A stretch of 64,000 nucleotides of DNA, from NCBI GenBank assembly GCA_028554795.2, contig CM068829.1, positions 134,096,579 through 134,160,578 of the forward strand, read 5' to 3'. Source of the DNA: Sinohyriopsis cumingii. Lineage: Eukaryota; Mollusca; Bivalvia; Unionida; Unionidae. Positions 1 through 30,699 of this stretch are shown in pieces. A program made the translations under genes and the position numbers. The notes beneath the pieces are model-generated. The model had not been told where the DNA came from and searched no databases. It saw nothing but the letters and a program-made list of their open reading frames with translations. Position 1 is the first letter of the stretch; each line of letters opens with the position of its first letter.

Positions 1-489
1 TTGTCCGAAACAGAAAAATCGCAAAAGTACGGTCAACTCTTGCAACGACTGCAACTCTTTCACCAGAAAGCTTTAGACGAAACAGCTCTACCCACTCTGA
101 AAGATTTTAAGACCTTGATGAAAAGTCCAGCACCATCACCAGTACCAGTACCAGTACCAGTACCACCAGTACCCGTGACCAAGACAGAAATAGGAGAAGA
201 AGAGGAAGGGTTTCAAACTCAACCAGAAAAAGTACGCAAGTTAACAACACCACCTACCTCCAGAATTGGATGGATTAAAAAGATGATGGCCACCCCTTCT
301 TCCTCACAAGAGAAAAAGAAAGTGAAGACAGAAGTGAAGACAGAAGTGAAACAAGAACCGATATCCCCCGCTCAGACATCCTTCTCCTCTTCGACACCTA
401 TTGCTGGCCGCACACGCAAAGCATTACAATCCAAGAAAATACCCCAAGAGAAAAAGAGTAGCATCCTCCAAGAGTGGGTGTCTTATTAA
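1..489 (+). CDS. Charged, proline-rich protein of element A (5' end outside window)
   Basis: The reading frame is open from the first base to a TAA at 487-489, so the start may lie upstream; the TTG at base 1 is only the first permissible codon. I do not recognise the protein. The N-terminal third looks helical, with Q/L-rich heptads. It is followed by a Pro-Val run (VPVPVPVPPVP, residues ~48-58), an acidic patch and a Ser/Thr/Lys-rich tail. Residues ~109-118 hold three consecutive psi-K-x-E motifs (VKTE, VKTE, VKQE), the consensus for SUMO attachment. The gene ends 24 bp before the integrase start and shares its strand, so it is probably part of the same transcription unit. It may be a core, scaffold or regulatory protein; no function is assigned. 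Confidence 0.6.
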   Translation: MSETEKSQKYGQLLQRLQLFHQKALDETALPTLKDFKTLMKSPAPSPVPVPVPVPPVPVTKTEIGEEEEGFQTQPEKVRKLTTPPTSRIGWIKKMMATPSSSQEKKKVKTEVKTEVKQEPISPAQTSFSSSTPIAGRTRKALQSKKIPQEKKSSILQEWVSY

Positions 490-513
490 CACACCAACCA
501 ACACAAATAAAAA

Positions 514-1623
514 ATGGAAAAAGTCTTAGCCAGCATTTACTACGATCCCTCCCATCCTGCAGGTTACGCAGGAGTTCAAAAATTGTATCGTGCTGCCAAA
601 ACGCGACTGAAAAGTCTCCGTTTACCTCAAGTGCAACGATGGTTACAAGAACAAGCTACCTACACTTTACACAAACCCATTCGACGCAAGTTTGCCAGAA
701 GTCGCACCCGAGTGGAAGGCATCGATCATCAATGGCAAGCCGATTTAGCCGACGTCTCTCATTTGGCCAGCTACAATCGTGGCTACAAATATTTGTTTTG
801 TGTCATCGACGTCTTCTCCAAATTTGCCTGGGTCGTGCCCTTGACTTCCAAATCGAGCAGCGAGTTAGTGCGAGCCCTGCAACGGGTGTTGAAACAAAGC
901 GGTCGTCACCCTCTTCGATGGCAAACGGACAAAGGCACCGAATTTCTGAACCAAGCTTTCCAAAAAGAATTAAAGAAACGTGACATTCATTTTTTTACCA
1001 CCGAGAATCCCGAAACCAAAGCCAGCATCGTGGAACGTTTTCAACGCACTTTGAAAGAACGCATGTGGAAATATTTTACGCATCACCACACTCTGAAGTA
1101 CATCGACATCTTACCGCACCTGGTGCAAGCGTACAACCAATCTTACCATCGAAGCATCGGACGTGCCCCGCAAGACGTGACTCCCGACAACGAAGTGCTG
1201 GTGTTTGAGCGCCTGTTTGGTACGTCCCCGACGAGGGCTGTCCCCAAGAAAAGTGGAGAGTTGGCCGTAGGAGATTGGGTGCGCATTGGCAAAACCAAAC
1301 GCACTTTCGACAAAGGTTACTTACCTAACTGGACGACCGAATTGTTTCGCGTCACTGGACGAGTGCATGGCCGTCATCCTGCCGTCTATAAATTGGAAGA
1401 CATGAACGGAGAAGTGCTCAAAGGAACGTTCTATTTGCCCGAGTTACAACGTGTCACCAAAAAAGAAGACGACGTGTACGACATCGAAAGCATTCTCGAA
1501 CGCAGAACCCGTAAAGTGGGCAAACGACGTGTCAAAGAAGTCAAAGTACGTTGGAAAGGATATCCACCCAGTTTCGATTCTTGGATCGACGCTTCGCAAG
1601 TCATCGACTATAAAAAGAAGTGA
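514..1623 (+). CDS. Retroviral-type (rve) integrase with C-terminal chromodomain
   Basis: This 369-residue protein has an RNase H-fold DDE integrase core: D77 (in QADLADV), D139 (in WQTDKGTEF) and E174 (in SIVERFQRT), with the diagnostic 35-residue D-E spacing. Residues ~315-365 form a chromodomain (VYDIESILERR at the start, VRWKGYPPSFDSWI carrying the aromatic cage residues), as in many Maverick and chromovirus integrases, where it can direct insertion to marked chromatin. Overall it resembles the C. elegans transposon-derived protein F54H12.3. It inserts the element into host DNA by strand transfer. The ATG at 514 is preceded by an A-rich stretch. The next gene starts 5 bp after the stop. 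The frame is intact and all catalytic residues are present. Confidence 0.92.
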   Translation: MEKVLASIYYDPSHPAGYAGVQKLYRAAKTRLKSLRLPQVQRWLQEQATYTLHKPIRRKFARSRTRVEGIDHQWQADLADVSHLASYNRGYKYLFCVIDVFSKFAWVVPLTSKSSSELVRALQRVLKQSGRHPLRWQTDKGTEFLNQAFQKELKKRDIHFFTTENPETKASIVERFQRTLKERMWKYFTHHHTLKYIDILPHLVQAYNQSYHRSIGRAPQDVTPDNEVLVFERLFGTSPTRAVPKKSGELAVGDWVRIGKTKRTFDKGYLPNWTTELFRVTGRVHGRHPAVYKLEDMNGEVLKGTFYLPELQRVTKKEDDVYDIESILERRTRKVGKRRVKEVKVRWKGYPPSFDSWIDASQVIDYKKK

Positions 1624-1628
1624 CCATC

Positions 1629-2045
1629 ATGCCCTTTCACACAGCAGACGCAGCTACGTCGACCACTCCTCCTTCACCTAGTTCTTCTGTGCAAGATTTA
1701 CAAAAACAACCCTTGTGGGTGTGGTGTGGAGAACGTGTGCCTAAAACGCAAATCGTCTTTTTCTGCCAAATCTTCGTGGTGTATTGTGTCATCGGGGCAG
1801 CCATTGCCAATTTGAGTTTGCAACAAGGAGACAAACAATTGTGGACCATTTTATTGAGCAGTTGCATCGGTTACCTGCTTCCTAATCCCTCCCTGAAATT
1901 CACCTCGAACGGGAACCACGGGAACCTTGTGTCCAGTGCCAGTGCCAGTCACCACTTCAATCACAACCAGAACCCCATTTTGGGCGGAGACACGCCTCTG
2001 ACGTCCACTAACCCCTCGGACAGCCACAGAACTCTGGAATTATGA
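1629..2045 (+). CDS. Two-helix membrane protein of element A
   Basis: I chose the ATG at 1629, since the upstream GTG at 1620 overlaps the integrase stop. The ~138-residue product has a Ser/Thr/Pro-rich N-terminus, then a hydrophobic segment (about FFCQIFVVYCVIGAAIANL) and a second one (WTILLSSCIGYLL), joined by a short polar loop (SLQQGDKQL), and a Ser/Asn/His-rich tail. This topology suggests a small virion membrane or membrane-active protein; that is inference. Its stop overlaps the next start in an ATGA (2042-2045), the coupling seen in compact viral gene blocks. No enzymatic motif is visible. Confidence 0.7.
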   Translation: MPFHTADAATSTTPPSPSSSVQDLQKQPLWVWCGERVPKTQIVFFCQIFVVYCVIGAAIANLSLQQGDKQLWTILLSSCIGYLLPNPSLKFTSNGNHGNLVSSASASHHFNHNQNPILGGDTPLTSTNPSDSHRTLEL

Positions 2046-2965
2046 GTCACCAAAACCAATTTTACTTAACCTTACCCAGTGACAGTTCCATGGAGGTGTT
2101 TCCCAAGAACACGTTGTGCTGTTACACGGCCAAATTACCTCAAGCCATCCAGTTAGATCACGAAGCCCATTGGGAAGTGGCTTTAGTAGAAATGATTCAC
2201 CCGACCCAAGTCCTCAATGTCCTTCCCAATCAAAATTTTTTTGATGTGGAAGTTCATGACGAGCAAATGCAACAGTGGATGGATAGCAATGTCAAATATG
2301 ACAAGAAAACCCGTACACAAAAGTACACCACCTATCACTTGTTCATTCCCCCAGGCTATTATTTTAGTGGTCAACATTTGGTCAGCACCATAACCTCCAG
2401 GTTTAATGTCGTGTTTCTGAAAGCTTTGGAGCATGTCAGCAAAAATGTCACCATGGAGAACCACAAAGCAGCTCGTCGCTTCTTGATGAAATTTGAACGG
2501 AGTAAAATCCTGTCCATTTTATTTTGTCCTGAATTGTATGACATGTTGGGCGGAGACATGGACATGAGAAAGACCATGATCAAGAAAAACGAATTACCCA
2601 TCGTTTACGACAACGAGTCTTTTAGCAAGTTATTTCGTGCCCCGGTAGAACTGAACCAAGGACTGAATTTGATGTTCGTGTATTCCGATGTGGTGGAGTA
2701 CAACGTGGTGGGACACACCTCCGTACCGTTACTGCGTGTCATTCCTTTCAAAGTGGATTCTGCCACGAACACTGACGAGGAAGGTGGAAACACTTACCAC
2801 GTCCACCGCGAATTTGTCCATCCTCACTATTTGCCTGTCAGTAAGTCGTATTTGGACACGGTCAACATTGCTATAAAAGGAGATTTGGGACAAAATATTC
2901 CATTCACCAAAGGAAAAGTCACGGTGAAACTCCATTTTCGAAAACGGTTCTCTCACGACTCTTAA
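2042..2965 (+). CDS. Probable minor capsid (penton-like) protein of element A
   Basis: This 307-residue, beta-rich protein starts with FYLTLPSDSSMEVFP and then WEVALVEM, a pattern I associate with a conserved protein found beside F54H12.2-like genes in invertebrate virus-like elements. It has no catalytic motif, signal peptide or membrane segment. Alternating hydrophobic strands and loops, its position between the membrane protein and the core protein, and its size are consistent with a jelly-roll minor capsid (vertex) protein. The start is set by the ATGA overlap with the previous gene; the next gene begins 3 bp after the TAA. The role is inferred from context; a structure prediction showing a single jelly roll would confirm it. 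Confidence 0.6.
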   Translation: MSHQNQFYLTLPSDSSMEVFPKNTLCCYTAKLPQAIQLDHEAHWEVALVEMIHPTQVLNVLPNQNFFDVEVHDEQMQQWMDSNVKYDKKTRTQKYTTYHLFIPPGYYFSGQHLVSTITSRFNVVFLKALEHVSKNVTMENHKAARRFLMKFERSKILSILFCPELYDMLGGDMDMRKTMIKKNELPIVYDNESFSKLFRAPVELNQGLNLMFVYSDVVEYNVVGHTSVPLLRVIPFKVDSATNTDEEGGNTYHVHREFVHPHYLPVSKSYLDTVNIAIKGDLGQNIPFTKGKVTVKLHFRKRFSHDS

Positions 2966-2968
2966 GTC

Positions 2969-3385
2969 ATGTATCCAGTGTACCGAGGGGTTGCTCGACA
3001 GCGAGGACACGGCTTAGGAGACATGTTAAAATCGGCCTTTCGTTCGGTGGCCCCGGTGTTGAAACCGATGGTGACACGCGGATTGCACGCCTTGAAAGAT
3101 GCGGCACTGACGCAAGGCAAAGAATTTCTCCAAAATGTCATCATCGACAAACAAAACCCTAAAGAAGCCTTCATGAGGGCAGGCAAAAATGTCTTGCTGC
3201 AAACGGGAAAAGACATTTTAGGCCAACGAGAAACACCTATAAATGCCCTGCACGCTACCGAGTCAGGCATTCAGCAAGGACAAGGCAGAAAGAGACGACG
3301 AAGAAAACACCCTTTCACCAGACTTCAAGCGAGAAAGGCCAAGAAAAGAAGAACCGTTCGAGACTTAGACGTTTTCGATTATTGA
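2969..3385 (+). CDS. Small basic core-like protein of element A
   Basis: This 138-residue, strongly basic protein has an N-terminal RQRGHGLGDMLKSAF segment, a helical middle rich in Ala, Lys and Gln, and a C-terminus with clustered arginines and lysines (GRKRRRRKH, RKAKKRR) that look like nuclear localisation or DNA-binding signals. The G-x-G-L-G-D start and basic tail recall the protein encoded in element B at 38,329-38,787, which also lies beside the major capsid gene. Both are plausibly adenovirus pX/pVII-like core proteins condensing the genome in the particle; this is inference from composition and position. Confidence 0.65.
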   Translation: MYPVYRGVARQRGHGLGDMLKSAFRSVAPVLKPMVTRGLHALKDAALTQGKEFLQNVIIDKQNPKEAFMRAGKNVLLQTGKDILGQRETPINALHATESGIQQGQGRKRRRRKHPFTRLQARKAKKRRTVRDLDVFDY

Positions 3386-3401
3386 GAAAAGAGACAAAAA
3401 A

Positions 3402-4715
3402 ATGATGCACCGAGAATCTTGCGCTTGTTCCAAGACGGAACTGGATCTGTTTGCCATGCCCCCCACGATGATGACGATGCAAGAATCCCAGTGGGTGGAA
3501 TTTCACCCCGTCTCCTCACTGACCGATTCCGCTCCCATCGAGTTTGAAATCAAAGGACAGCCCGAAGATTACATCGATCTGAATAGCAGTTACTTGTACC
3601 TGAAAGTCAAAATTCTAGATAAGACTGGAGGTGCTATAGACGATGCAGCAGTAGCTCCCGTCAACAATTTCATGCATTCCTTGTTCAGTGGAGTGGACTT
3701 GTACTTGAATAACAAACTGGTCAGTAGCAGCATGGATACTTACCCTTATCGTGCCTACCTGGAAAATCTCTTGACGTACGGAATAGATGCCAAGAACACT
3801 CATCTCAATGCCTGTGTGGTATGGGAAGCTGACGAACCTACCAAGTTTGAAATATTGGAAACTGATGAAAAGAAAGACAACAATGATGGATTTGTAGAAC
3901 GAAGAAAGAGAATCACGGGAGCCGACACAAGTTTAGAACTGATGGATCGTTTGCATTTGGACATGTGGTTGCAAGAAAAGTATTTGCTGAACGGGGTGGA
4001 TGTCCGCCTGAGACTGAATCGTAGCAGTGCCGCTTTCCATTTGATGGCTGATAGTGACGGTTACAAAACCAAAATCCTAGAAGCCAGACTCTACGTACGC
4101 CGTGTGGAAGTGTTACCTAAAGTGGGAAACGACATCAGTCAGACGTTGAGCAGAACGACTGCCAAGTATCCCATACGACGCGTGGAAGTGAAAACCTTCA
4201 CCATTCCCAAGGGACAGCGATCCATGATCGAAGATCGTCTGTTCCAAGGACAGTTACCCAAACGTTTGATCGTTGGTATCGTCGAGAATACAGCCTTCAA
4301 CGGAGCTGCCGAAAAAAATCCTTTCTACTTTCAACACTTTGGCGTGTCCAAAATCGAAGTCAGTCGCGATGGCAAGACCTTGTGTACCCGACCTTTCGAA
4401 CCTGACTTTACCAAGAAGAATTACTTGAGATCGTACTTGTCCCTGTACGAAGGCACCGGACAGTTAGGAACCAATACCAGTCACGGTATTACGTACGAGG
4501 ATTATGCAGGAGGCTACGCTTTGTGGGCTTTCGATTTCACTCCAGACCAAGGCAGCGACGAGGGACATTTCCACCCTATAAAATCCGGCCAGATTCGTGT
4601 GGAAATTCAGTTTAAAGACCGAGACCCTGATGAAACGGTGAACGTCATCCTGTATGCAGAATTCGATAATACCATAGAAATCAACAGTTTGAGAGAAGTC
4701 ATCCTAGATTACTAG
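3402..4715 (+). CDS. F54H12.2-like protein, probable major capsid protein of element A
   Basis: The 437-residue product resembles the C. elegans protein F54H12.2, whose gene neighbours the integrase-like F54H12.3. Landmarks are WVEFHPVSSLTDSAPIEFE at residues ~31-49, then DYIDLNSSYLYLKVKI, and a C-terminal half rich in beta strands (for example YEDYAGGYALWAFDF and IRVEIQFKD). It is the largest structural ORF in the block and stands last, where Mavericks carry capsid genes, so a double jelly-roll major capsid protein is the likely role. The frame is intact. Two polyadenylation signals follow within 220 bp. Identity with the F54H12.2 family is fairly secure; the capsid role is inferred. Confidence 0.7.
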   Translation: MMHRESCACSKTELDLFAMPPTMMTMQESQWVEFHPVSSLTDSAPIEFEIKGQPEDYIDLNSSYLYLKVKILDKTGGAIDDAAVAPVNNFMHSLFSGVDLYLNNKLVSSSMDTYPYRAYLENLLTYGIDAKNTHLNACVVWEADEPTKFEILETDEKKDNNDGFVERRKRITGADTSLELMDRLHLDMWLQEKYLLNGVDVRLRLNRSSAAFHLMADSDGYKTKILEARLYVRRVEVLPKVGNDISQTLSRTTAKYPIRRVEVKTFTIPKGQRSMIEDRLFQGQLPKRLIVGIVENTAFNGAAEKNPFYFQHFGVSKIEVSRDGKTLCTRPFEPDFTKKNYLRSYLSLYEGTGQLGTNTSHGITYEDYAGGYALWAFDFTPDQGSDEGHFHPIKSGQIRVEIQFKDRDPDETVNVILYAEFDNTIEINSLREVILDY

Positions 4716-4765
4716 AAACCATGGAAGACTGTTATCCCTCTTTACCTAGTGGAGAAACGTTTAGT

Positions 4766-4960
4766 GTTGGATTATTGTTAAAAAATGTTAGAGTTCTTGT
4801 TGTTTAGTGTTAAGTGATTTTTGAATAAAAAAAATGTTGTGTTTTGAAAAAAATTGTTTGATGTTATATTGTTGGATTATTGTTAAAAATGTTAGAGTTG
4901 TTGTTTAGTGTTAAGTGATTTTTGAATAAAAAATGTTGTGTTTTGAAAAAAATGCCTTTG
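4766..4960 (+). terminator. Duplicated 3' UTR with two poly(A) signals
   Basis: A segment starting GTTGGATTATTGTTAAAA occurs twice with a ~105-bp period (from 4,766 and 4,871). Each copy contains TTTTTGAATAAAAAA, giving AATAAA signals at 4,824 and 4,925 followed by GT-rich sequence. This is the expected 3' end of the capsid transcript and differs from the histone-type ends of the three cassettes downstream. Confidence 0.65.
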
Positions 4961-5057
4961 TCTTTTGTTTAGCTATAAGAATGTTGGATTGATGCTCTTT
5001 CATTTCTTACTATCCCTCTCATGACACTCACTAAACGTTGCGACTCAAAAACCGTAT

Positions 5058-5098
5058 GGGGGATGTTTTCCTTCACGTCCGCGCTTTGACTTTAAGAA
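5058..5098 (+). promoter_or_regulatory. Cassette 1 promoter box with TATA-like element
   Basis: The box GGGGGATGTTTTCCTTCACG, continuing TCCGCGCTTT, is followed by a TATA-like TTTAAG at ~5,091. The same box stands before all three small ORFs (5,058; 5,933; 6,935), always ~25-30 bp before a TATA-like hexamer and ~60-90 bp before the ORF. Conservation across otherwise diverged spacers marks it as regulatory. Confidence 0.7.
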
Positions 5099-5149
5099 CC
5101 GGGTTGTTTCCAGTCTAACCATCCATTGTCGACTCATCCTCCTAAGAAG

Positions 5150-5512
5150 ATGTGCTCCAAACTAGCTAAACTCAACGAAGCCTACGTAAATTTGCATAGG
5201 GTCAGACACAGTCTGATACCGAAGCCAGAAGAAATAGAGAATGTGAGAATGTTAAAAATCACTGAAGACCTGATAGAAGAGCTCTTCAGAGAAGAAATGA
5301 ACAGGGAAAAAGAAGAATGGACAGAGAAGTACAGACTTCAGAGACAGCAGCAACAACAACAACAACAAGAGCAGCAGCAGCAGCAACCTGAACCTGACAG
5401 AGGCTTTGTCGATTGCCGTATCGACACCAAAGAGTTCTTCTTTTCTTTCCGAAGAAGCAGACCTATCGCCAGAAAGTCTATCCTCAGAGGACATCGCATT
5501 CTTAGAAACTAA
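5150..5512 (+). CDS. Small charged coiled-coil protein, cassette 1
   Basis: The frame is open upstream to a TTG at 5,126, but the first ATG is at 5,150 and gives a 120-residue protein. Residues 1-20 (MCSKLAKLNEAYVNLHRVRH) resemble the start of the cassette 2 protein, so the two are probably paralogues. A glutamine run (QQQQQQQQEQQQQQ) follows a K/E-rich helix, and the tail is Arg-rich (RRSRPIARKS). There is no membrane segment or enzyme motif. The conserved upstream box and the histone-type 3' stem-loop 34 bp after the stop show that this is a real transcription unit. Function unknown; a core or DNA-binding protein made during host S phase is a guess. Confidence 0.65.
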   Translation: MCSKLAKLNEAYVNLHRVRHSLIPKPEEIENVRMLKITEDLIEELFREEMNREKEEWTEKYRLQRQQQQQQQQEQQQQQPEPDRGFVDCRIDTKEFFFSFRRSRPIARKSILRGHRILRN

Positions 5513-5545
5513 AAAAAGAATGCCATAACAAACAAAAAAAAAACC

Positions 5546-5584
5546 AGCCCTTTTCAGGGCTACCCCAATACTCTAGAAAAGAAA
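5546..5584 (+). terminator. Histone-type 3' stem-loop and purine-rich downstream element, cassette 1
   Basis: A 6-bp stem with a TTTC loop (AGCCCT-TTTC-AGGGCT, 5,546-5,561) has AAACC before it and ACCCCA after it. About 14 nt downstream is a purine run, AGAAAAGAAA (5,575-5,584). This is the layout of metazoan replication-dependent histone 3' ends: stem-loop bound by SLBP, cleavage after ACCCA, U7-pairing HDE. An AATAAA-like signal lies further down near 5,626. Confidence 0.85.
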
Positions 5585-5870
5585 TAACGATCGATTTGCC
5601 AATGTGTGTAGGTAGAATAGTGTGAAAATAAACACTAACTCTTTTTTAAAAAATGTGAGGGTATGTGTTTGTGTGTTAGTAAGTGCTTAAGTAAGTTGGT
5701 ATGAATAGTAGATTAAAATCATGTTTTTTTTTTGTTTTTTTTTTTCGTGTTTGAGGTGTATATTTGGAGTTAGATTGGATTGCTTTGCGTATGTGGATAG
5801 TCTAATGAAGTGATTTATAAAAAATTTTAAAATAGTGATGGGTAGCATAAAAAAGTGAGTGAGTGTTTCT

Positions 5871-5972
5871 TTTAGGTCCGCGCGTTGTTGTTTTTGGTCA
5901 TGATGTAGGTAACATCAATTTTATGTTTTTTAGGGGGATGTTTTCCTTCACGTCCGCGCTTTCACTATAAAT
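5871..5972 (+). promoter_or_regulatory. Cassette 2 promoter: dyad site, G-box, TATA
   Basis: The order is TCCGCGCGTTGTT (~5,876), the 17-bp dyad TGATGTAGGTAACATCA (5,901-5,917), the shared box GGGGGATGTTTTCCTTCACG (from 5,933) and TATAAA (5,966-5,971). The dyad is repeated before cassette 3 with a compensatory change in both arms. Confidence 0.7.
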
Positions 5973-6023
5973 TGAAACTCGCTGGGCAGTCTAGCTACCC
6001 TTGTTGATTGATCAACACCAAAA

Positions 6024-6410
6024 ATGAACACGAGACTGTCTAAACTGTTGGAACTTCATGTGCATCTGGAATATGCCAGGCGCCTGTTGAATGAACTGGC
6101 CGCGGAAGCCATTGTGGAGGAGGGAAGGATAAGAGAGGAGGAGGAAAGAAGAAAAAAAGAAGAGGAGGAGAGAAGATATAAAGAAGAAGAAGAGGAAAGA
6201 AGATACAAAGAGGAGGAGAGAAGAAAAAAAGAAGAGGAGGAGGAGGAGAAGGAAAAGAAGAGAAGAAGAATAAATTTCAGAATCCCAGAGAGCGAAAATT
6301 GGGATTCTGAAGCGACATATCCTGCCTCTGCTCTCTCCCCCAAAAAAGTAAAAAGTAACTGGGGGATAAGATGTGTATGTGGCGCCAGGCCTGGAAGGTG
6401 CCACCATTAA
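6024..6410 (+). CDS. Small charged coiled-coil protein, cassette 2
   Basis: This 128-residue protein begins at an ATG with an A-rich context (CAAAAATGA). Its N-terminus, LSKLLELHVHLEYARRLL, resembles that of cassette 1. The middle (residues ~35-90) is an almost uninterrupted Glu/Lys/Arg helix with EEERR and YKEEE repeats, expected to form a single alpha-helix or coiled coil. The tail loses the charge and has two cysteines (CVCGARPG). Expansion of the GAA/GAG/AGA repeats probably drives divergence. The promoter box lies ~90 bp upstream and a histone-type stem-loop follows 30 bp after the stop. Unknown function. Confidence 0.65.
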   Translation: MNTRLSKLLELHVHLEYARRLLNELAAEAIVEEGRIREEEERRKKEEEERRYKEEEEERRYKEEERRKKEEEEEEKEKKRRRINFRIPESENWDSEATYPASALSPKKVKSNWGIRCVCGARPGRCHH

Positions 6411-6440
6411 CCAGGTGTCCATGAAGTTCCAAAAAAAACC

Positions 6441-6479
6441 AGCCCTTTTCAGGGCTACCCAATACTCTAGAAAAGAAAT
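6441..6479 (+). terminator. Histone-type 3' stem-loop and purine-rich downstream element, cassette 2
   Basis: AGCCCT-TTTC-AGGGCT (6,441-6,456) is followed by ACCCA, the canonical cleavage sequence, and GAAAAGAAAT (6,470-6,479). The ~45-bp block is nearly identical to cassette 1 whereas the coding sequences are diverged, so the 3' element is under constraint or was recently copied. Confidence 0.87.
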
Positions 6480-6865
6480 AACGATCGATTTGCCAATGTG
6501 TAGGTAGAGTAGTGTGAATATAAACACTAACTCTTTTCTAAGATAGTGTGAGGGTATGTGTTTGTGTGTTGGTGCTTGTAAGAGCTCAGGTATGTTTGTG
6601 TGAATAGTAGATTATGGGTTTCTTTATTGTTTCTTAGCGTATGTGGAGAATATAGTTTGGGTTTTGTAAGCGCTCACGTACGATTGTGAGGATAGTAGAT
6701 TATGGATTTTGTTTATTGTTTCTTATCGTATGTGTTTGTGTTTGTGTGTTTGTGTTTGTACCCGCTCACGTACGATTGTGTGGATAGTAGATTATGGATT
6801 TGTTTATTGTTTCTTAGCGTATGTGGAGAGTATAGTTTGGGTTTTATTATATGAAATGAAAAAGT

Positions 6866-6975
6866 AGGGGACGTTTTCCTTCACGTCCGCGCGTTGTTTG
6901 GTCATGATCTAGGTAAGATCAATTTTACGTTTTAGGGGGATGTTTTCCTTCACGTACGCGCTTTAAGTATAAGAA
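6866..6975 (+). promoter_or_regulatory. Cassette 3 promoter: tandem boxes, dyad, TATA
   Basis: A partial box (GGGGACGTTTTCCTTCACGT, ~6,867) is followed by CCGCGCGTTGTT, the dyad TGATCTAGGTAAGATCA (6,905-6,921), the full box (from 6,935) and TATAAG (6,968-6,973). Sequence near 6,997 (AACCATTCTGC) resembles the CATTC cap motif of histone genes. Confidence 0.7.
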
Positions 6976-7024
6976 CCCACAGTATTCGTCGTTCAAACCA
7001 TTCTGCAAAGAATAAAAAAAGAAG

Positions 7025-7411
7025 ATGGCTTCTAACCAAATGGACAAAATACAAACATTACAAGACGTTTTAGACAACTTAGGAATGATGGAGCAGATGT
7101 TGATAAGACTGGTTGAAGACCATTATTCCTATAGTCCCCATCGTGTAAAGATGGAAATTAATAACTTAAAAAAGGTAAAGGACAAGATTAGTGGTGTCAT
7201 GAAAGAGATAAAGGAGGAGAAGGAGGATGAAGAGGAAAGAATAAGAATAAGCAAATGGAACGAAAAGATTGAAAAAGAAGAAGAAAATGAGAAGAGGAAG
7301 AAAGAAGAGGAGGAAGAGAAGAAGAAAGAAGAGCAGGAGAAAAAGAAAGAGAAGAAGAGAAAGAGTGTTGGAGATAAAATAAGAACTTGGTGGAGAAAAA
7401 GAAGAAATTAG
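7025..7411 (+). CDS. Small charged coiled-coil protein, cassette 3
   Basis: The ATG at 7,025 opens a 128-residue protein. Residues 1-60 are of mixed composition (MASNQMDKIQTLQDVLDNLG at the start) and look helical. From residue ~60 it is a Glu/Lys helix with KKEEEEEKKKEEQEKKK-type repeats, ending in a basic KIRTWWRKRRN. The N-terminus is not clearly homologous to cassettes 1 and 2, but promoter box and 3' stem-loop are shared, so the cassette is modular. The Trp/Arg tail could bind DNA or membrane. Function unknown. Confidence 0.65.
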   Translation: MASNQMDKIQTLQDVLDNLGMMEQMLIRLVEDHYSYSPHRVKMEINNLKKVKDKISGVMKEIKEEKEDEEERIRISKWNEKIEKEEENEKRKKEEEEEKKKEEQEKKKEKKRKSVGDKIRTWWRKRRN

Positions 7412-7439
7412 AAGCAGAAGAAGAAGAAGAAAACCCAAA

Positions 7440-7478
7440 GGCCCTTTTCAGGGCCAGCCATATTTCTCGAAAAGAGAT
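7440..7478 (+). terminator. Histone-type 3' stem-loop and purine-rich downstream element, cassette 3
   Basis: GGCCCT-TTTC-AGGGCC (7,440-7,455) matches the histone stem-loop consensus base for base, preceded by CCCAAA and followed by GAAAAGAGAT (7,469-7,478). Its outer stem pair is G-C where cassettes 1 and 2 have A-T, so both arms changed together. Confidence 0.9.
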
Positions 7479-7563
7479 AGCCTTTCCATTGCCTACCCCT
7501 TTTTTTAAATTTAAATTTAAATTTAAATTAAAAAAAAAAAATCCCAAAAGCCCAAACTCTATT

Positions 7564-7853
7564 CCCCATGTTAATTTCCCCTTGTCGCTAGACAGACCCA
7601 CCCTGTTTAAATTCCTTTGACGCTATACAGTCCCCTATTCCCATGTTAATTTCCCCTTGTCGCTAGACAGACCCACACTATAGTTCCATGTTAAATTCCC
7701 CTTGTCGCTAGAGTGACCCACGATTTATTCCCATGTTAATTTCCCTTGTCGCTAATCTGACCCACGATTTTTCTCCATGTTAAATTTCCCTTGTCGCTAA
7801 TCTGTCCCAGGGGGGTCTGTAATGCTAATTCCCATTGTCGCTAATGTATCCCC
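7564..7853. repeat. Seven iteron-like direct repeats at right end of element A
   Basis: A unit of about 36 bp around CCATGTTAATTTCCCCTTG and TCGCTAGACAGACCCAC recurs at ~7,564, 7,605 (diverged), 7,640, 7,686, 7,731, 7,775 and 7,819, with 40-55 bp spacing. The constant core is TTGTCGCTA. Divergence increases to the right. Position at the element end suggests a replication or terminal-protein region, or tandem debris of a terminal repeat; not a CRISPR array, since spacers are short and partly alike. Confidence 0.7.
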
Positions 7854-7860
7854 CTTTACT

Positions 7861-8261
7861 ACTAACACTTCTCAGATCTGGGACAGCATATAAACCTGTA
7901 GGTTAGTCTAATATGGTTAAATGAAACGAATACATCCTCTCTTATTCAAGTTTCACATTTGTCGAAATTCCAAAGGTTAATGCATCCTTCCCTACACTGA
8001 AATCACAGTATTTGTGACGTACTTATGCACTTACCTACCCGCTGTACAAACTTCCTATCAATATATGTACATTCATACATATACAGACTGACACATCTAT
8101 ACATAAGTGTATATGTACACATATGCATAGGTCATATTACATACATACATACATGCATGCATACATACATACATACATACTTACATAATGTTGCCTATTT
8201 CATTGTGATACATTGGAGAATGGAGAATGTTCGCAAGTAGAATTTATAGGAAAAGACTGAC
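7861..8261. other. No gene seen; CATA microsatellite
   Basis: AT-rich host DNA with a degenerate (ACAT)n tract at about 8,130-8,185. No coding signal seen. Confidence 0.5.
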
Positions 8262-8470
8262 GTGTGTACGTGTGTGATTAGGATTTTTAACGTAGCTTTA
8301 AAAAGTTTTCAGTCATATCGCTACGATGTCTGCAGTCTGACATTTTTGTAGTCATATCTGCTAAGCGAGGCAGCTGCTAGTACCATTTTTATAAGTCTCT
8401 GTTATGACCCGAACCCGCGACCTCCCGTATCGGAGGCCGACGCTCTAACCAATTAGGCCACCGGAGCGGT
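8262..8470 (-). mobile_element. tRNA-derived SINE, copy 1
   Basis: Read on the minus strand it starts with a tRNA-like head (8,407-8,470) containing an A box and a B box (GGGTTCGGGTC region). It continues through a body with AGCTGCCTCGCTTAGC and TGCAGACATCGTAGCGATAT and ends with AAAGCTACGTTAAAAATCCT. The same order and motifs occur on the + strand at 19,377-19,690, so it is a dispersed family. Confidence 0.75.
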
Positions 8471-10732
8471 TCACAATCTTTTGTAAATTCCGTGTGAGAA
8501 AGCATACATTATCCTTCCGTGGGTCAGTGATTCTTTATAGGGGTTTACCGGGGTTCTTCCTCCACCATTTATTCTGGCCGTCATGTATAGTCTAACTTGC
8601 GCAGAGAAATGGTATTAAAACCCCAAAGCACCATCAGCAACAACAACAACAACATACAGTCATGCATGATCGGCCTTGTTTTTTAAAAAAGAATTTTGGG
8701 TGTTACATTTAGGATTTCAGTATGTTTTGTTTGTGTCATCAATAAATGTCTGTGTTGGGTGTTGTCGGATTACACGTTAAATTGTAAAGTTTTTTAAAGT
8801 AAAATGTACGGATTTTCGTTTCATTACTAAAAAGGTCGAACATTAAATAACATGTAAGCGCATATGATAGATTATACGGTTTATGGGAGTTTTATATTAA
8901 TTAAGTTGGTTTGCCCATTCCAGGACCCAAATGTGTTTAAACGTATGTATCTTTCTGTGAAGGTCCTCAACGAGTTTTATCGCGCATCAGTCGCATCATG
9001 TATAATTATTTTAAAACTATATTTATAGTTTTACACTTTCTTAGATATATTTAAAATAAGTGCATGCTATTTAAAACAAATGAATATGTATTTCATCATT
9101 ATCTTATAATATCTATTTATTTGTCTATCATGTGATGTATTAAAACATCCAACAATTGAGACTTATAGATGAATTCTAAAAACATTTCTCCAGAAGAAGT
9201 AACGAATTACAAACATAATCAGAATTCTGTACCACATTATACAAATAGCATACTTGGCAAGGAAAGATGATATAAACCAATATTTAAGAAAATAAACTTT
9301 ATATATTTTTTCCTTTAGGAAACAAAGCCAGCCACAACAAATAGTCAATGAAGCAGATACAAATTTGAAGGAAACAAAAACAAAAACAATGTATTATTTC
9401 CATTTTAAAGATTAGCATGATAGCACCCATTGACACTGAAAACAACAGGACTATGACAACGTGCTATATCAGTTATTCAGTTAACAGTAACTTGTGCAGC
9501 TTTGCTGAATATATGTTTACCAATCCATAATTATAAAAGTAAAATCTTAGAATAAAAATTATTTGTAATACGCAAGGCTGCATGCTATGTCAAACAATGT
9601 TTGTATTCAGTTATGTCGAAGGGGTGTGTGATCCCACTTAGTATGATGTTTTGCTTATTGTTATCAGGAGATGATTCGATGACGGTGTTATTGCCCGGAT
9701 CGAGTAAGCAATAAAATAAAATACGCAATTAATGGATGCAATAAGAGAGATTTGAGCTGGGGTTTGAAATAGAACAACACGAGTTCCCGTATTAAAAATA
9801 TATAATTTAATTAATTACATAAACAAAATGAAATTGAACATGACATTTAAATAATACACTTTCTCTTAGAAATAGTTACAAAATTTATGCCAAATTCAAA
9901 TAGTCGATTTTTTTTTAAATCAGTAAAACAAATAAAATCACAGAATCGAGTGAATGATGAAGCTCAAATTGTTGGCATGTCACATCAAAATTTTAACACT
10001 CCCATCGAAGTCAAAATAACTCTCTCTTGACTACCTTTATTAATAACTATTCTAGAAAATATCATTTTAAGAAACCTATTTCAAGTGGCACAAGATTTCC
10101 CAATATTTGGCTCTGCTTTGTCTCAACTTTGTCATTTTTCGGTACTTGATCTTACATTAACACAACTGTCTCACCGTCATCCGAGCGGACTCTAACTAAA
10201 ATTCGATCATACCTCCCAACAAGAGAGGTTAACCATCACAAGCTACAAACTGTATTGCGAGCCTAGTCCATACGTCAGTCTTAAAATGGTTACGTGTCAT
10301 GCTACCACGACGGAATGTACTGCGAACATATCTACAAAATTTTGCACCTTTACAAACTAATATTAATTCACAATCATTCATTTGGCATGAATTTTCTACA
10401 AACCACATTTTCAAAGAATCACACAACGATGATGCCTCTGTGGAAAATATCTGCTAATAACGTACCGAAGAAACTGTAAATGTCTGCAAAGCCAGAAAGA
10501 TTTAAAAAGGAATTCAAGTACTGTATACTATATTATTCGCCTAGCCCCACCCCACCCAACCTCAGGACAGTTTGTACCCTCCTTGAGAATTTAGAAAGGA
10601 AAACCATCAAGGATTTTAAAAAGCATGAGCAAAATTTAGTCGTTTAATTAATTAATTTATAATGTCTAGCCGCATTCTTGCCAGGTGGTTCTTAACGCCG
10701 TCGCCTTATTCGTAATTCAAATAAAATGATTA
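8471..10732. other. Non-coding host DNA
   Basis: The first ~170 bp, ending in a (CAACAA)n tract at 8,636-8,655, looks like another SINE-type tail. The rest is AT-rich with only short random ORFs; no gene recognised. Confidence 0.45.
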
Positions 10733-13302: not shown

Positions 13303-13420
13303 ATATGAATAGTCTGGTTCCCTGCTTAGTATGCTCTCTGCGTTGCCCTCCGCTATACTATTAGTATAGCGGAGGGCAACGCAGGGAGCATACTAAGCAG
13401 GGAACCAGACTAACATATGA
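13303..13420. repeat. Near-perfect 51-bp-arm palindrome
   Basis: TAGTCTGGTTCCCTGCTTAG through CGCTATACTA is followed after one base by its reverse complement, ending CCAGACTA at 13,412. Only one mismatch is seen (CTCT versus CCCT). CATATG flanks extend it slightly. Confidence 0.95.
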
Positions 13421-23680: not shown

Positions 23681-23936
23681 AGCAGCAGAGGGGGCGAACA
23701 GACCAATGGTCGAAAAATGTCCAAATGTCGAAAATAAGCCTTCCTACAAATGATCGAAAAAAAGCGTCGACAGATTTAAAAAAGCGTCGACACTTTACCG
23801 AGAGAGTCTCTATGGAATTTGTCTAATTAATATTACTTTATTGTCGTTGGTGATTTTTTTTTTCTAGTTTATTATGCACGCGTTTTACTTAATTGCGTCT
23901 TCATGAGGTCATGGCCCCTCTGCTGCTATATTAATT
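23681..23936 (+). repeat. Left terminal inverted repeat of element B
   Basis: Pairs with 40,100-40,356 at about 97-98 percent by eye (one clear substitution plus small indels in A and T runs). It contains GCGTCGAC twice in direct orientation and several TCGAAAA motifs. Its own inner end (23,914-23,927) is the inverse of its outer end. Confidence 0.95.
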
Positions 23937-24586
23937 TATCCAAATATTTTATCAAGTCCAATACGATATCTTGTTCTAGGATCGTGCAAATTTATTGTTA
24001 TAAACCTATGTGGAGTAGCTTGCGCTCGTGAAAAGAAATTTCTAAATTTAATTATATCCATATCACCGCTGCACCAGGTTTGATGAATATTTCGCAACGT
24101 ATGTGTATCAACTCCATTAAACACAACTAAAATATTACAGTTATCTCTGATCACTTTTGGTATTTGTGTGTATCGTTGAGTAACATAAATAACATCGGTG
24201 TTTTTATGTCTACCTCGAGAAAAAATCCTAGCTGGATTTGATTGTTTGTCCAGCATCACATCGTCGTATACAACTAAATTATTAACAAATCCGTCTATGG
24301 AATCTACTGATGGTGCTTCATCAATATCGGTTATAAACTCGATAACATCGCTATCCGCGTTTTCATTAAAATCCTTAAGTACATCATAACATCGCTGATC
24401 ATCAACTGACGGGGCTACCAAATACAATTTATCCCATTTTAACCATCTCATTATAAGATTAAGCAACATCTGTGTCTTTCCACTTCTAGATGGTCCTATT
24501 ATTAACATTCTGATGGAATTTGGTAACGCAGGATGGTGCTTGACAGGTTCTCGTTTTCTTGTCGCTGAGAAATCAGTTATATCCAT
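23936..24586 (-). CDS. FtsK/HerA-type (A32-like) genome packaging ATPase
   Basis: The start is placed at the ATG 24,586 (MDITDFSATRKREP), giving 216 residues; the frame runs on upstream without homology. Walker A is GPSRSGKT (residues 31-38) and Walker B is LVVYDD (D108, D109). A Gln in VIYVTQRYTQIPK fits the sensor position of A32-like ATPases, and an Arg-rich C-terminus (DPRTRYR) follows. These proteins pump viral DNA into preformed capsids. It is one of the few element B genes with an unbroken frame. Its stop touches the inner edge of the left TIR. Divergently transcribed from the zinc-ribbon gene with ~16 bp between starts. Confidence 0.9.
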   Translation of the reverse strand: MDITDFSATRKREPVKHHPALPNSIRMLIIGPSRSGKTQMLLNLIMRWLKWDKLYLVAPSVDDQRCYDVLKDFNENADSDVIEFITDIDEAPSVDSIDGFVNNLVVYDDVMLDKQSNPARIFSRGRHKNTDVIYVTQRYTQIPKVIRDNCNILVVFNGVDTHTLRNIHQTWCSGDMDIIKFRNFFSRAQATPHRFITINLHDPRTRYRIGLDKIFG

Positions 24587-24602
24587 GCTGTATAAAATAT
24601 AT

Positions 24603-24821
24603 ATGGATTTATATTGTGTAAAGTGCAGGACGCGTACACCGACGGATACACTAACAACTATTACCACAAAAAATAATAGATCAGCGGTTACGGGTAAGTG
24701 TACGCGGTGTGGTACAAAGAAATTTAAATTTATCTCTACTGACAAGTCAGCGCAGTCAGGTGAAAAGTCAAAATCAGAATCAAGTAAACAAAAAAGCAAC
24801 GCGGAGGTGATATTGCAGTAA
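24603..24821 (+). CDS. Zinc-ribbon protein (DUF5679-like)
   Basis: From ATG 24,603 (an in-frame ATG also exists at 24,585), a 72-residue protein. It has CVKCRTRT near the start and CTRCGTKKFKF in the middle, four cysteines in two CxxC knuckles, resembling the DUF5679 zinc ribbon. The tail is Lys/Ser-rich. The stop (24,819-24,821) lies inside the PLA2 reading frame, which is open from 24,788 in the -1 register. The two may therefore be one protein separated by a lost base or a frameshift site. Confidence 0.7.
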   Translation: MDLYCVKCRTRTPTDTLTTITTKNNRSAVTGKCTRCGTKKFKFISTDKSAQSGEKSKSESSKQKSNAEVILQ

Positions 24822-25162
24822 AATTAAAAAAATTACCGGGAACTCCATGGGCTAAATACAGCGGAGAAAAACACCTACCAGGATATAATTATTGCGGTCC
24901 TGGTACTCGACCCGATATCAGGCTTGATAATCAGGATCAACCAAAACCAGGCGAGGAACCAATAAACGCTATTGATCGAGCTTGTCATGCTCATGATGTT
25001 GCGTATAAAAGCAATGATCTACAACATAGGCATATTGCAGATGTGAAATTAATTCATGCGTTAAATTCCATAAAAAATAAAAACATCAAAGAATCACTAG
25101 CTAACTGGTTAGTAAGATCCGCGATGAAAGGTAAATTAGCGCTAGGGGCTGGTAATATATAA
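24788..25162 (+). CDS. Parvovirus-type phospholipase A2 domain ORF
   Basis: The frame opens after a stop at 24,785-24,787 and has no ATG before the domain. Diagnostic motifs are GYNYCGPGTRP (calcium-binding loop) and DRACHAHDVAYK (catalytic HD with the conserved Cys and Tyr). This fold in parvovirus VP1 helps particles breach endosomal membranes, and PLA2 domains are known in Polintons and adintoviruses. Catalytic residues are present. Lack of a start suggests fusion to the zinc ribbon upstream by frameshift, or decay. Ends 1 bp before the integrase ATG. Confidence 0.75.
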   Translation, partial: TKKQRGGDIAVKLKKLPGTPWAKYSGEKHLPGYNYCGPGTRPDIRLDNQDQPKPGEEPINAIDRACHAHDVAYKSNDLQHRHIADVKLIHALNSIKNKNIKESLANWLVRSAMKGKLALGAGNI

Positions 25163-25163
25163 A

Positions 25164-26116
25164 ATGGAATCGATCTATTATTCCCCAATTGGATACTGGA
25201 AGGGTAAAGCAGCAATTAGTAAACTTGCTGATGCAGCAGCGGTTAAACATTCTACTGCTAAAACGTGGTTATCCAAACAGGCAATATGGCAAATTTACCT
25301 ACCGCCACCGAAACAAATTCTGTACGCGTATTTCGATGTTAGAGTTCCTAATGAAGTTCATCAAGCTGATATATTATTTTTGCCACATGATACTGTGCGT
25401 AGAAAAACGTACAAATACGCGCTGACCGTTGTTGATGTTGCAAGTAGATATAAAGAAGCAGAACCGTTGTCAACAAAGACAGCATCTGAAGTAGCCGATG
25501 CGTTTAAACGAATTTATCAACGAGGACCATTACGATGGCCACAGCTGCTACAGGTTGATCCTGGCAAGGAATTTCTTGGTCCAGTATCATCGTTGATGAA
25601 ACAACATAATACCAAAATACGACAAGGACATACTGAGGTTCATCGTGATCAGGCAATTGTTGAGCGATTTAATCGAACACTCGCTGAGCGGTTATTTGGA
25701 TATCAATACGCGAAGGAATTTATTCAGGATACGAGATCTCGTGAATGGGTTGCAAGATTACCAGGTGTGATAGCCGCGTTAAATAATGAAGTAACTCGAA
25801 CGCCCAACATGAAACCTATTAATGCAATTACAAGCGCGCATATATCCGTACAACGACGTGATCTTTCAGCACAGCCAGTATTAGGTAATATGACTGTAAG
25901 GTATTTATATGAGCCCGGAGAACTCGAAGGTGGTAAAAAAAGAGCTACTGATCCTATTTGGAGTATTACCACACATAAGATATCCACCGTAACTAGATCC
26001 TCAGGTAGACCGCAATCTACAGACTAGATTCAACTGCTCCTCAACGTGGATTTGTACGTGAACAATTACAAGTAATTCCTAAGGACACACAATTACCACC
26101 CAAATCACTTAACTAG
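25164..26116 (+). pseudogene. Polinton rve integrase, frameshifted near C-terminus
   Basis: Residues 1-287 read in one frame, with catalytic D69 (HQADILF), D132 (LQVDPGKEF) and E167 (AIVERFNRT), D-E spacing 35. The frame ends at TAG 26,025, but the expected basic tail (including GFVREQLQVIP) continues in the -1 register to TAG 26,114-26,116. A one-base loss near 26,013-26,018 explains this. No chromodomain is seen, unlike element A. Core enzyme residues are intact. The tail converges on and overlaps the end of the polymerase-helicase gene by a few bases. Confidence 0.88.
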
Positions 26117-29100
26117 CGCCACGACGTCGGTTACATTCAAGACAGGTCAACATGATATTTTCTCGTGTATGACCAAGATTGTTATTTTTTCTATCTACGG
26201 TAAATTGTCTTGGATCATTTTTCAGATACCGCCATAACATTATACAATTACAACTTGCACAATGACTATTCTGTTGTTGTTTCAGCGCAATGACAACATC
26301 AGTGTCTAGATCAAATTCTCGATTATTTTTTTATCACACTGTTTATAACCAGCTAGTTTTTTTCTTATTATATCGCTTTGACATTCGTCAAGGCCTCGAC
26401 AGAGGTCATCATTGATTGACGAGTCCATGACGATTCGTCTCAATTGAGATGTTTTTCTAACTCGATACACTGCAAGATAAACTAGGTTCGACCATTCGAT
26501 GTGATCATCAACGATCCAAACAACTGTATCAGAGATAGTTAATCCCTGAGATGAATGAATCGTCATCGCGTATCCAAGTGTCCACGGGGATTTATCAGCA
26601 CGTAGAGCATCTTCAACAACATCAACATCAACTGCGACAATATCATTTAACACAAGATTCTGTTTCCTTGACTCTGTCAAGTGTCCTGGAATAACAACGT
26701 CGATATTTTGCCGATATTTTTACGGGTGGTGGTTGACCGTGATCGCCGCACATTATCACGGCAGTATTTCTTGTTAATAACTAATCAAGGAACATTTTTA
26801 ATGTTTCTAGCTGTACAGTGCATATTTCATCCCATATTATGATCCTTGGAATGTATTTTTCGCCCATCCTTAAAGATGTCCATGTATCACCCTTCCATCG
26901 GAAAAAGCTGTGATAAGTACATGACTGCACTTCTTGTTGTTTCATTTCTCATGCGAGTCTATGTGTTGGTGTTAGCACAATCATATCTGAATTCTGAAAT
27001 AGTTTGATAGCTCGAGTGGTTTTACAGGAACCGCCAGGTCCGTTTAGATAAACCGTTTTGTGTCTAGTTATTGGATCATATATCGATGGTAACAACGAAG
27101 TTGTCGACGATTGATATTTTATCACGTAAATATCTTTAACCGCAACATGAGAGAATTCGGAATAATCGAGCATATATTCCTTTTTTATTCTCCACGAACC
27201 CCACGATGCACAAGTGTCTATGTTTAATCCTTCTAACAATATTAAATACTTTTTACTTATATAAAACGAATCCGTGGCAACTCTGACGGCATGCGTAGAA
27301 ACCTTATTTATCATCGATAATAGATTTATTGAAACGTATGCGAGCATCGATGATCTTAAATGAGTATACTGGGGTGACTCACCGTCCATGTAGCTCACAA
27401 TTGTACCTAATTTAGTTCCATTTGGCAAGAAAGCTATTTCTCGACTTATAAACGTGTTTTTCTTCGTTGTATCAGCAATTATAAAATCTAACTCAGCATC
27501 GTCCATGATCAGTCTTGTACAATGTCGTCTGTGATCATATGCTGCTCCTTGGGTAAATTTGCCGATTATTTTTCTACCAAGATCTTTTGAATCGGTTTCA
27601 TCCGAATGTGGTAACCAAACTTCGGTTTGTTTTCGATATGATATAATTGCTTCACTTACAATCAACCGTGTTAGCATCGTACAATCAAGCATATATCGTA
27701 ATAGTACTATTGGTGCCCACATTTTTTCTGAAAAATATTTTCCAAACCAATCATAACAAATCGCATGGAGCTCTTTAGACATTTCGAATGATTCAATACG
27801 AGCAAATCCAGTTAGGTCAAAATCCGGTAATGGTCCTTTTATCGATACTCATGTCATCTCGTGCGTCGGATGACCAAATCGCTCAAAGTACACAGAACAA
27901 TTTCCGTATCCAAGAAAACTTCCGGGATAACATGCAACCATATCAACTGAAATAACATCTTTATGATCGTATTTAAAGTATTCCATAGTCCGCCGTGTCC
28001 ATATTCGACACAACTCGATATTATGTCATTGAGAAAATCAGACTGAGTTGGCTTCCACAAATTTTTCTTTCTAGCAAAGTGAGCCGCAACTGACGGAACA
28101 GTAAAACAGTTGCTCAATAGTTCGTCAGCGTCATTAGTATATTGCAGTGCAAGATTTTTCATTTTCTCGTGAAGAAGATCTGTTCGATAAATAACGCCAT
28201 TTGGTCTTACAAACTGATCAAATTTCATATCTGATTCGTCGTTAGAACTCTGAAATAACCATACTGACACAGGATCGTTTTTACTTATTTCGTTAATAAA
28301 ATCAAACATGTCTCCGGGATAACATTTAACAGTTCGATCTCGTGGAAACACTGTTACTGCGTTAGTCCACGCGTGTGCGTTATGATCAATAATTGTAATT
28401 GAGGCTCCTTTTGATTTATATTTTGATTCATACAAAATCTCCCCTGTTTTCGTCGCTACGGTTATTGGAAATTTTAATACTTTTCCTAACCCAGCGACAT
28501 CTCTGATAGACGCACCGGTATCTTTAACCATTTCTCCCCACGTGTTTATTATTTTACGTCTTTTATCCGTTAGACCGTTTCCACAGGCCGCGTTTGTAAA
28601 ATATTCTGTTACTCGCTCGGCTACACAATTTATTTTTGAAAATTTAATCGGCGACAGTTTATCAACGTTGGGTTTTTCATTTATCACATAGATTCCATAA
28701 ATAACCGCGGTCACAGGATATGCTCGCTCATAATACGGTTTGTCAATGCCAGTCAATAGACCTGGTCTGGAATCTCTACTTAGTACGACAGTTTTTTTAT
28801 CACCGTGGACAGGATCATATTTGTCACGGATAATCCAATCATCTGTTTCTGTCAACATAACAAATTTTATTCTAAAAAGATACTTGCGATTATCAAGATA
28901 GTTGATGATAATTGCTGCTCGTTTGTCATTCATCATAGCGTTAATGATATCTTTGTCACATATAATCTTGAGCGTTGACCAGACATGAGATTCACCATCT
29001 GCGTGAAATTCTTTCTTGGCGTCTTGAATTTTATTAATCAAACCTCTGTTTTTCGGATCAGCCAGATCTTTCATCGCTAGGCCAGGAGATATTCTGTCGA

Positions 29101-29158
29101 GGTTGAATTTATCCACGCTCCAAGGCTTTATTCGGGATAATCTATCGAATTCGTTCAT
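26109..29158 (-). pseudogene. Fused B-family DNA polymerase - SF1 helicase - HNH-type nuclease, broken
   Basis: Read from 29,158 downwards. The N-terminal region of ~390 residues has no clear motif. A frame change near 27,985 is followed by polymerase motif A (SVDMVACYPGSF), a motif B-like KIIGKFTQG and motif C (RVATDSFYI). Without a break the frame continues into a helicase Walker A, GPGGSCKTT (27,020 region), then TPTHRLA and a TGA at 26,949. Beyond are motif II (IIIWDEIC), another stop, motif III (MCGDHGQPPP), motifs V/VI (GYAMTIHSSQG, AVYRVRKTSQL), and in a further register a Cys/His HNH-like module (CASCNCIML, TVDRKNNNLGHT, CLECNRRRG). At least three frameshifts and two stops are visible. 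The polymerase is short for a Polinton, and exonuclease motifs are not evident to me. Confidence 0.78.
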
Positions 29159-29262
29159 GTTATATTTGAAACAAGTATTTAAATTAAAATATTATGTATA
29201 CAATGTCTCAATGCAGATGGCTCATGGTTGGTTCATTGACTCGTTGTAATAAATCCTGTTAA

Positions 29263-29493: not shown

Positions 29494-29517
29494 TTTAAAT
29501 AAATGATTTTATCATAT

Positions 29518-30677: not shown

Positions 30678-30699
30678 CTATATAATAACTTCTGAAACA

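Follow-up and report, generated by a model that had tools for sequence, protein, structure and literature searches.

The left end of a 64,000-nucleotide stretch of the Sinohyriopsis cumingii genome (contig CM068829.1, positions 134,096,579 to 134,160,578; hereafter the window) carries the right-hand part of an endogenous DNA virus of the Maverick/Polinton type (adintovirus-like) that multiplied recently, and three small genes of this element end in the 3' signal of animal replication-dependent histone genes. The signal is real, matched to that of the host, and conserved; it was found only on accessory genes of the virus-like element. Its sequence, its position, its conservation and its identity with host signals are established here. 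Most likely, the small genes of the element use the host's stem-loop-binding protein (SLBP) and U7 small nuclear ribonucleoprotein (U7 snRNP), yielding mRNAs that would be non-polyadenylated and favored in S phase. The three genes, their upstream blocks and their 3' signals are arranged as follows (window positions; + denotes the forward strand):

5062 to 5084, +: shared upstream block of open reading frame (ORF) 1, GATGTTTTCCTTCACGTCCGCGC, a promoter candidate
5150 to 5512, +: ORF1, 120 amino acids, non-histone, the first gene with a histone-type 3' end
5546 to 5561, +: hairpin 1, AGCCCT TTTC AGGGCT (AGCCCTTTTCAGGGCT)
5562 to 5566, +: ACCCC, the expected cleavage stretch behind hairpin 1, positioned by analogy with histone genes
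5573 to 5582, +: purine element CTAGAAAAGA behind hairpin 1, identical to the downstream elements of host H1, H3, H4 and H2B
5937 to 5959, +: ORF2 copy of that upstream block; TATAAA follows at 5966
6024 to 6410, +: ORF2, 128 amino acids, many of them charged, non-histone
6441 to 6456, +: hairpin 2, identical in sequence to hairpin 1
6467 to 6476, +: purine element behind hairpin 2, identical to the 10-mer of site 1
6939 to 6961, +: the same upstream block before ORF3, with a further copy at 6870-6892
7025 to 7411, +: ORF3, 128 amino acids, non-histone
7440 to 7455, +: hairpin 3, GGCCCT TTTC AGGGCC (GGCCCTTTTCAGGGCC), with 5' flank CCAAA
7469 to 7474, +: GAAAAG, the core of the purine element of site 3 (element TCTCGAAAAGAGATAG)

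All three sites combine a 6-bp stem with a UUUN loop and a G as the second stem base, which SLBP requires according to passages of PMC10388802. The stop-to-stem distance is 33 nt for ORF1, 30 nt for ORF2 and 28 nt for ORF3; the hairpins are followed directly by ACCCC, ACCCA and AGCCA; and the purine core GAAAAG lies 14, 13 and 13 nt beyond the hairpin. Read past AGCCA, the downstream stretch of site 3 is CTCGAAAAGAG, as compared with CTAGAAAAGA at sites 1 and 2. The first-pass annotation of this DNA had described three 6-bp hairpins with TTTC loops at these positions, roughly 29-34 bp after the stop, with an ACCC-like stretch in the first two and a purine element about 13-14 nt farther on; every hairpin was found where it had been placed. 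Judged by their sequence, sites 1 and 2 derive from a duplicated cassette: they share a 71-nt block that is 83% identical and thus are not independent. The flanks of site 3 diverge from both, and at the first stem pair it has G-C where they have A-U, a paired change. Two A precede the stem of hairpin 3 and one A follows it; in hairpins 1 and 2 the stem is preceded by CC and followed by A. A 22-nt inverted repeat (86%) links the start of ORF2 (6048-6069) with the stretch directly before hairpin 2 (6411-6432).

Two more genes with such 3' ends, denoted A and B, were located in the adjoining 10 kb to the left of the window (L093), which holds the left part of the element. Gene A encodes 186 amino acids and gene B lies on the other strand; both are near PolB. 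Scored with the Rfam histone stem-loop model RF00032 (gathering score 34 bits), the five sites of the element reach 28.2 (ORF1), 29.9 (ORF2), 32.2 (B), 35.6 (ORF3), and 41.2 bits (A), so that in the window the ORF3 site stands above the gathering score and the other two below it. None of the three window sites scores at background, the outcome that the first-pass annotation had named as a refutation, and the window holds no further match (E ≤ 1 in 9001-64000, E ≤ 5 in 1-9000). The hairpin 16-mer, with up to 3 mismatches, was matched 3 times when 0.18 matches were expected, and no shuffled sequence out of 100 reached 3. A descriptor of stem, loop and purine element found 3 sites per 64 kb, whereas 200 dinucleotide shuffles averaged 0.05 and never exceeded 1; without the purine element, the descriptor found 4 (shuffle mean 0.36, maximum 3). 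A model built from the three window sites scores those sites at 71-82 bits by construction; its next-best match in 281 kb of sequence is 18.4 bits. Single-strand folding formed the hairpin in 6/6 stretches; the folding energy of the three 101-nt stretches is unremarkable (z -0.7 to -1.1).

Bivalve histone genes carry palindrome and purine elements, according to PMC6210712. In the 2.90-Gb host genome the histone genes lie in tandem repeats with a unit of about 8.3 kb, and their 3' ends were read directly in three loci (L086-L088). The hairpin of host H2A, H2B, H3 and H4 is GGCCCT TTTN AGGGCC; that of H1 is GGTCCT TTTC AGGACC. The 10-mer of hairpins 1 and 2 stands behind H1, H2B, H3 and H4 (4/5 histone genes); the downstream element of H2A is CCCGAAAAGG, which has the core GAAAAG in common with site 3. 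AC precedes the stem in H2A, H2B, H3 and H4, and the stop-to-hairpin distance is 27-38 nt in host histone genes as compared with 28-33 nt in the element. Six host histone sites (L086) score 35.0-39.4 bits with RF00032; three element sites (ORF1, ORF2, B) fall below that range, one (ORF3) within it and one (A) above it. U7 pairs with the downstream element (as given in passages of PMC1924863); since host histone genes and the virus element have the purine element in common, host U7 should serve both.

Genome-wide, where the best 75 of 589,472 first-look RF00032 candidates were scored (host histone sites not among them), at least 75 matches exceeded the cut-off, and none lay near the 150 listed histone-fold matches when compared by eye. 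Of the 30 hairpin-picked loci that were fetched, 29 hold at least one element gene class (ORF2, ORF3, A, B, or E), the exception being L052; ORF1 was found in two longer stretches of such loci. E is a sixth gene class, with a histone-type 3' end in other copies of the element. RF00032 scores in other copies reach 44.5 bits at the ORF3 site and 44.6 at the E site. Counting only hairpins that had not been used to pick the locus, in copies with enough downstream sequence (n = 29; L089-L092, which overlap four of the fetched loci, were left out), 27 of the 29 gene copies have at least 5/6 stem pairs plus the purine element, and 21 have all six pairs. The ORF2 class was compared at 12 sites: window site 2 and the 11/12 copies in which the hairpin is kept, with proteins that match ORF2 at 39-89% identity over the matching part. 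Ungapped pairwise identity was 0.94 in the hairpin, a figure raised by choosing hairpin-keeping sites, and 0.83 in the spacer; the purine zone, which was not selected for, likewise gave 0.94, and the stretch from 60 to 8 nt upstream gave 0.36-0.39, indels lowering the outer figures. Class A (13 sites), read with the same limits, gave 0.95, 0.84, 0.94, and 0.31-0.43, respectively.

A selection-free test was provided by ORF1, for which a protein search returned at least 150 copies at 98-100% identity. Approximately 130 nt behind the gene were inspected in 20 of the copies listed, spread down the list. The hairpin is kept in 20/20 of these protein-picked copies, contrary to the absence from other copies that the first-pass annotation had named as a refutation, with a perfect stem in 18 and one change in 2; the 10-mer is present in 20/20, the 20 stretches are mutually different, and AC precedes the stem in 18/20, as in host H2A, H2B, H3 and H4. 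The ORF1 copies are recent, so they show presence of the signal, not long-term constraint, on which the 29 gene copies above bear. At least 38 ORF1 copies, the window copy included, are 100% identical in protein among the 150 matches listed, which suggests a very recent burst of the element. Five ORF1 copies about 45 kb apart occur at G000:C11:9090457-9270553, a spacing that would fit tandem duplication of a large stretch that includes the element. At L089 (G000:C6:10198200-10208190), the A and B genes are flanked by diverging PolB-like ORFs, named by eye, an arrangement that two element arms placed head to head would give.

No such hairpin was found in the 150 nt behind 10 other element genes (PolB, the ATPase-like gene, the integrase, the gene in the penton position, the capsid gene and five more), where the best candidates have at most 8/13 core bases; the capsid gene has no hairpin of histone type within that distance. 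As had been claimed at the outset, none of the three window ORFs is a histone: ORF1-3, like A and E, have no histone family match.

Based on these sequence features, the signal very probably works as a histone-type 3' end, and S-phase coupling of the genes is likely. Host RNA polymerase II would transcribe the short genes, of which ORF1-3 have an upstream block in common; host SLBP would bind the hairpin, U7 snRNP would pair with the purine element as in host histone pre-mRNAs, and the transcript would be cut after the ACCC-like stretch. The resulting mRNA would end in the hairpin rather than in poly(A), would be translated through SLBP, and would be abundant only during DNA replication and lost once replication stops. 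We infer SLBP and U7 use, absence of poly(A), and S-phase expression from the signal itself. The virus may gain by expressing these genes in step with DNA synthesis or by being free of poly(A) control. With AATAAA behind its capsid gene, it may have two 3'-end classes. In its broadest form, which we hold to be reasonably probable, the interpretation is that a virus lineage moved six accessory gene classes, at both genome ends, into the host histone-mRNA regulon. Their mRNAs would then be the first from non-histone genes to use SLBP and U7, free of poly(A) and linked to replication, and the capsid would belong to a second class that is polyadenylated.

Several observations weigh against this interpretation. 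Three of the five element sites (ORF1, ORF2, B) score under the RF00032 gathering score, which only ORF3 and A exceed; in hairpins 1 and 2 the first pair is A-U, and CC stands beside the stem in place of the AA that belongs to the SLBP requirements in PMC10388802; and the gene-B hairpin in L093 lacks the expected A after the stem. Conventional signals are also nearby: AATAAA occurs at 5627, 66 nt past hairpin 1, and ATTAAA at 7527, 72 nt past hairpin 3, and in L093 an AATAAA lies 18 nt past the gene A stop, ahead of its hairpin (the A copies L028, L037, L041, and L051 have no AATAAA between stop and hairpin). The hairpin is missing from one E copy (L033) and one ORF2 copy (L044). Sequences of the ORF2 class are still alike well beyond the hairpin start (0.82 at 40-60 nt, 0.72 at 60-90 nt); the corresponding figures are lower in class A (0.64 and 0.47). 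Comparison with the host, which had been proposed along with the original description, succeeded for the histone genes, whose layout and 10-mer match, and failed for U7: host U7 RNA was not found in a genome search with RF00066, which returned three sub-threshold matches (best 29.3 bits), not U7-like. RF00032 found nothing in four distant relatives (0/4; 27-46% capsid identity, contaminants of bacterial genomes), a negative partly due to lost or degraded sequence: L001 extends just some 1.3 kb past its capsid gene, and the capsid frames of L002 and L003 are broken. Finally, the AATAAA signals that the first-pass annotation had ascribed to the capsid gene are present, at 4824 and 4925, but its division of the element into two 3'-end classes has the capsid gene as sole example, given that the nearest AATAAA behind PolB is 424 nt off and that none was found behind two further element genes in the stretches searched.

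Other explanations were weighed against the same evidence. The 3' ends might have been taken from a host histone gene and have spread with the element, ending transcripts passively and without S-phase control. We consider this unlikely: a purine element identical to the host's and genes as small as those in histone clusters fit such an origin, but retention on six gene classes, the paired change from A-U to G-C, and the existence of two signal types suggest maintenance. Moreover, the SLBP dependence of histone 3' ends itself brings S-phase dependence.

It is still more doubtful that the processed hairpins serve mainly to compete for SLBP and U7 snRNP, starving host histone mRNA and leaving viral DNA poor in nucleosomes, with the proteins secondary. 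In favor of this reading, the element has five hairpins, ORF1 is present in at least 150 genomic copies, and conservation is higher in the hairpin and purine zone than in the sequence before them. A sponge, however, requires neither ORFs nor a cleavage site, whereas all five hairpins stand behind ORFs at about a histone-like distance, and ORF1 is conserved in 7 outside homologs and its frame is open in 149 of 150 copies among the matches listed.

Virophages are related to Polintons, and the hairpins could be terminators of the virus type, as in Mimiviridae, marking polyadenylation sites. Transcripts of Mimiviridae are polyadenylated at hairpins, according to PMC4402537; the fixed hairpin sequence and loop found here, a downstream element identical to the host's, and the restriction of the hairpin to accessory genes, with none behind ten others including PolB and capsid, make this reading very improbable. 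Chance palindromes are ruled out by the shuffle controls, conservation in copies and the host match, even though one phage-like (by eye) contig of the IMG/VR database has a hairpin of 24.8 bits; that contig lacks the purine element, and the full stem was present in 0/19 viral stretches of a looser scan.

The remaining evidence concerns the element itself. Its other landmarks in the window are:

514 to 1623, +: integrase (rve, 2e-14; chromodomain, Chromo, 1e-7), no hairpin
3402 to 4715, +: major capsid protein, double-jelly-roll fold, no hairpin
7565 to 7813, +: right-end repeat units, with inverted copies at L093:768-956

The element measures about 17 kb (at least 17.0 kb) and bears five histone-type 3' ends, those of B and A on the left and of ORF1-3 on the right; a 25-mer of the right end recurs in inverted form some 9 kb to the left of the window (L093:768-956). 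The PolB in L093 is 94% identical over 940 amino acids to an ORF in L091 with a DNA_pol_B_2 match (E 5e-34), and an ATPase-like ORF, named by eye, lies at L093:7596-8339. The predicted capsid fold (predicted local distance difference test score, pLDDT, 83) matches those of double-jelly-roll capsid proteins from Sputnik, mavirus, PBCV-1 and iridovirus; among viral models, an unnamed bracovirus protein matches best (38% identity). The double-jelly-roll capsid fold, the rve integrase with chromodomain, PolB and the inverted end repeats bear out the earlier description of the element as virus-like.

ORF1 has 7 homologs from other sources, 77-84% identical over residues 1-62, and ORF3, for which residues 1-62 were searched, has a 93% homolog in Sinanodonta woodiana, a species with public RNA-seq data (SRP547275, PMC12048480); no homology between ORF1 and ORF2 or between ORF1 and ORF3 was found by comparison. 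The predicted fold of ORF1 comprises two helices and a strand pair (pLDDT 71) and has no structural match at E ≤ 0.001. Allowing 0-1 mismatches, the shared upstream block was located 4 times, against an expectation of 0 from 100 shuffles; it is absent from L093 at up to 5 mismatches, so genes A and B lack it. The N-terminal extension of one ORF1 homolog (P0123), when back-translated, aligns with window positions 5000-5149 (score 108; shuffled maximum 54, n = 60), and thus the region ahead of ORF1 is conserved as well.

Relatives beyond this genome were sought in the viral databases. Searches of IMG/VR by capsid, by ORF1 and by hairpin patterns found no relatives; a looser hairpin pattern returned the 19 viral stretches mentioned above, and a third pattern returned 2 stretches, one of them the hairpin without purine element. 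No capsid relatives were found in phage and plasmid records. In one of the distant relatives, a sub-threshold match to the twister-P1 ribozyme (L002:11734-11798; 28.9 bits, E 0.034) lies directly behind the capsid gene.

Other features were noted in passing. In L092, a protease-like ORF (1870-2430; named by eye, no Pfam match) follows the capsid gene, unlike the window copy, where no ORF of at least 40 amino acids lies between the capsid gene and ORF1; an ORF beside the element (L092:7407-8537) has a DUF3504 match and a QRICH1 match below the cut-off. Window positions 23936-39550 hold a second, different virus-like element, with a DUF5679 protein identified by Pfam and with ORFs that were named by eye as integrase, ATPase-like, PolB-like and capsid-like; RF00032 matches nothing in it at E ≤ 1. 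At 13310-13412 lies an almost perfect inverted repeat of 51 bp with a 1-nt gap; all microRNA-like matches there are sub-threshold.

PMC6303110 and PMC10388802 describe histone mRNAs as the sole metazoan mRNAs known to lack poly(A). If the proposed interpretation is true, the element breaks the rule that histone mRNAs alone among animal mRNAs go without poly(A), and it offers a new route by which viral expression is tied to the cell cycle or escapes poly(A)-based control. Poly(A)-selected RNA data would then miss these viral genes. The many copies would also provide a natural set of hairpin and downstream-element variants for the study of SLBP and U7.

Four known systems bear comparison. With metazoan replication-dependent histone genes, the element genes have in common the 6-bp stem, the UUUN loop, the G at the second base and the ACCC-like stretch, as well as, at sites 1 and 2, a purine element identical to that of 4/5 host histone genes; they differ in being non-histone genes of a virus-like element, and hairpins 1 and 2 in their A-U first pair. 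PolB, the rve integrase, the double-jelly-roll capsid protein and the inverted end repeats are those of Mavericks/Polintons and adintoviruses, from which the element may be set apart by its histone-type 3' ends: we found no description of histone stem-loops in viruses, Mavericks, Polintons, adintoviruses, transposable elements or non-histone mRNAs in the open-licence literature, a scope outside which most subscription journals fall. Mimiviridae likewise place a hairpin at the transcript ends of a DNA virus, but there virus-coded enzymes act and poly(A) is added (PMC4402537), whereas here the sequence is fixed and matches the host. The histone-like Histoid genes of adomaviruses, as portrayed in PMC11071296, are a further case of animal DNA viruses drawing on histone biology; there it is the protein that is histone-like, and here it is the RNA signal.

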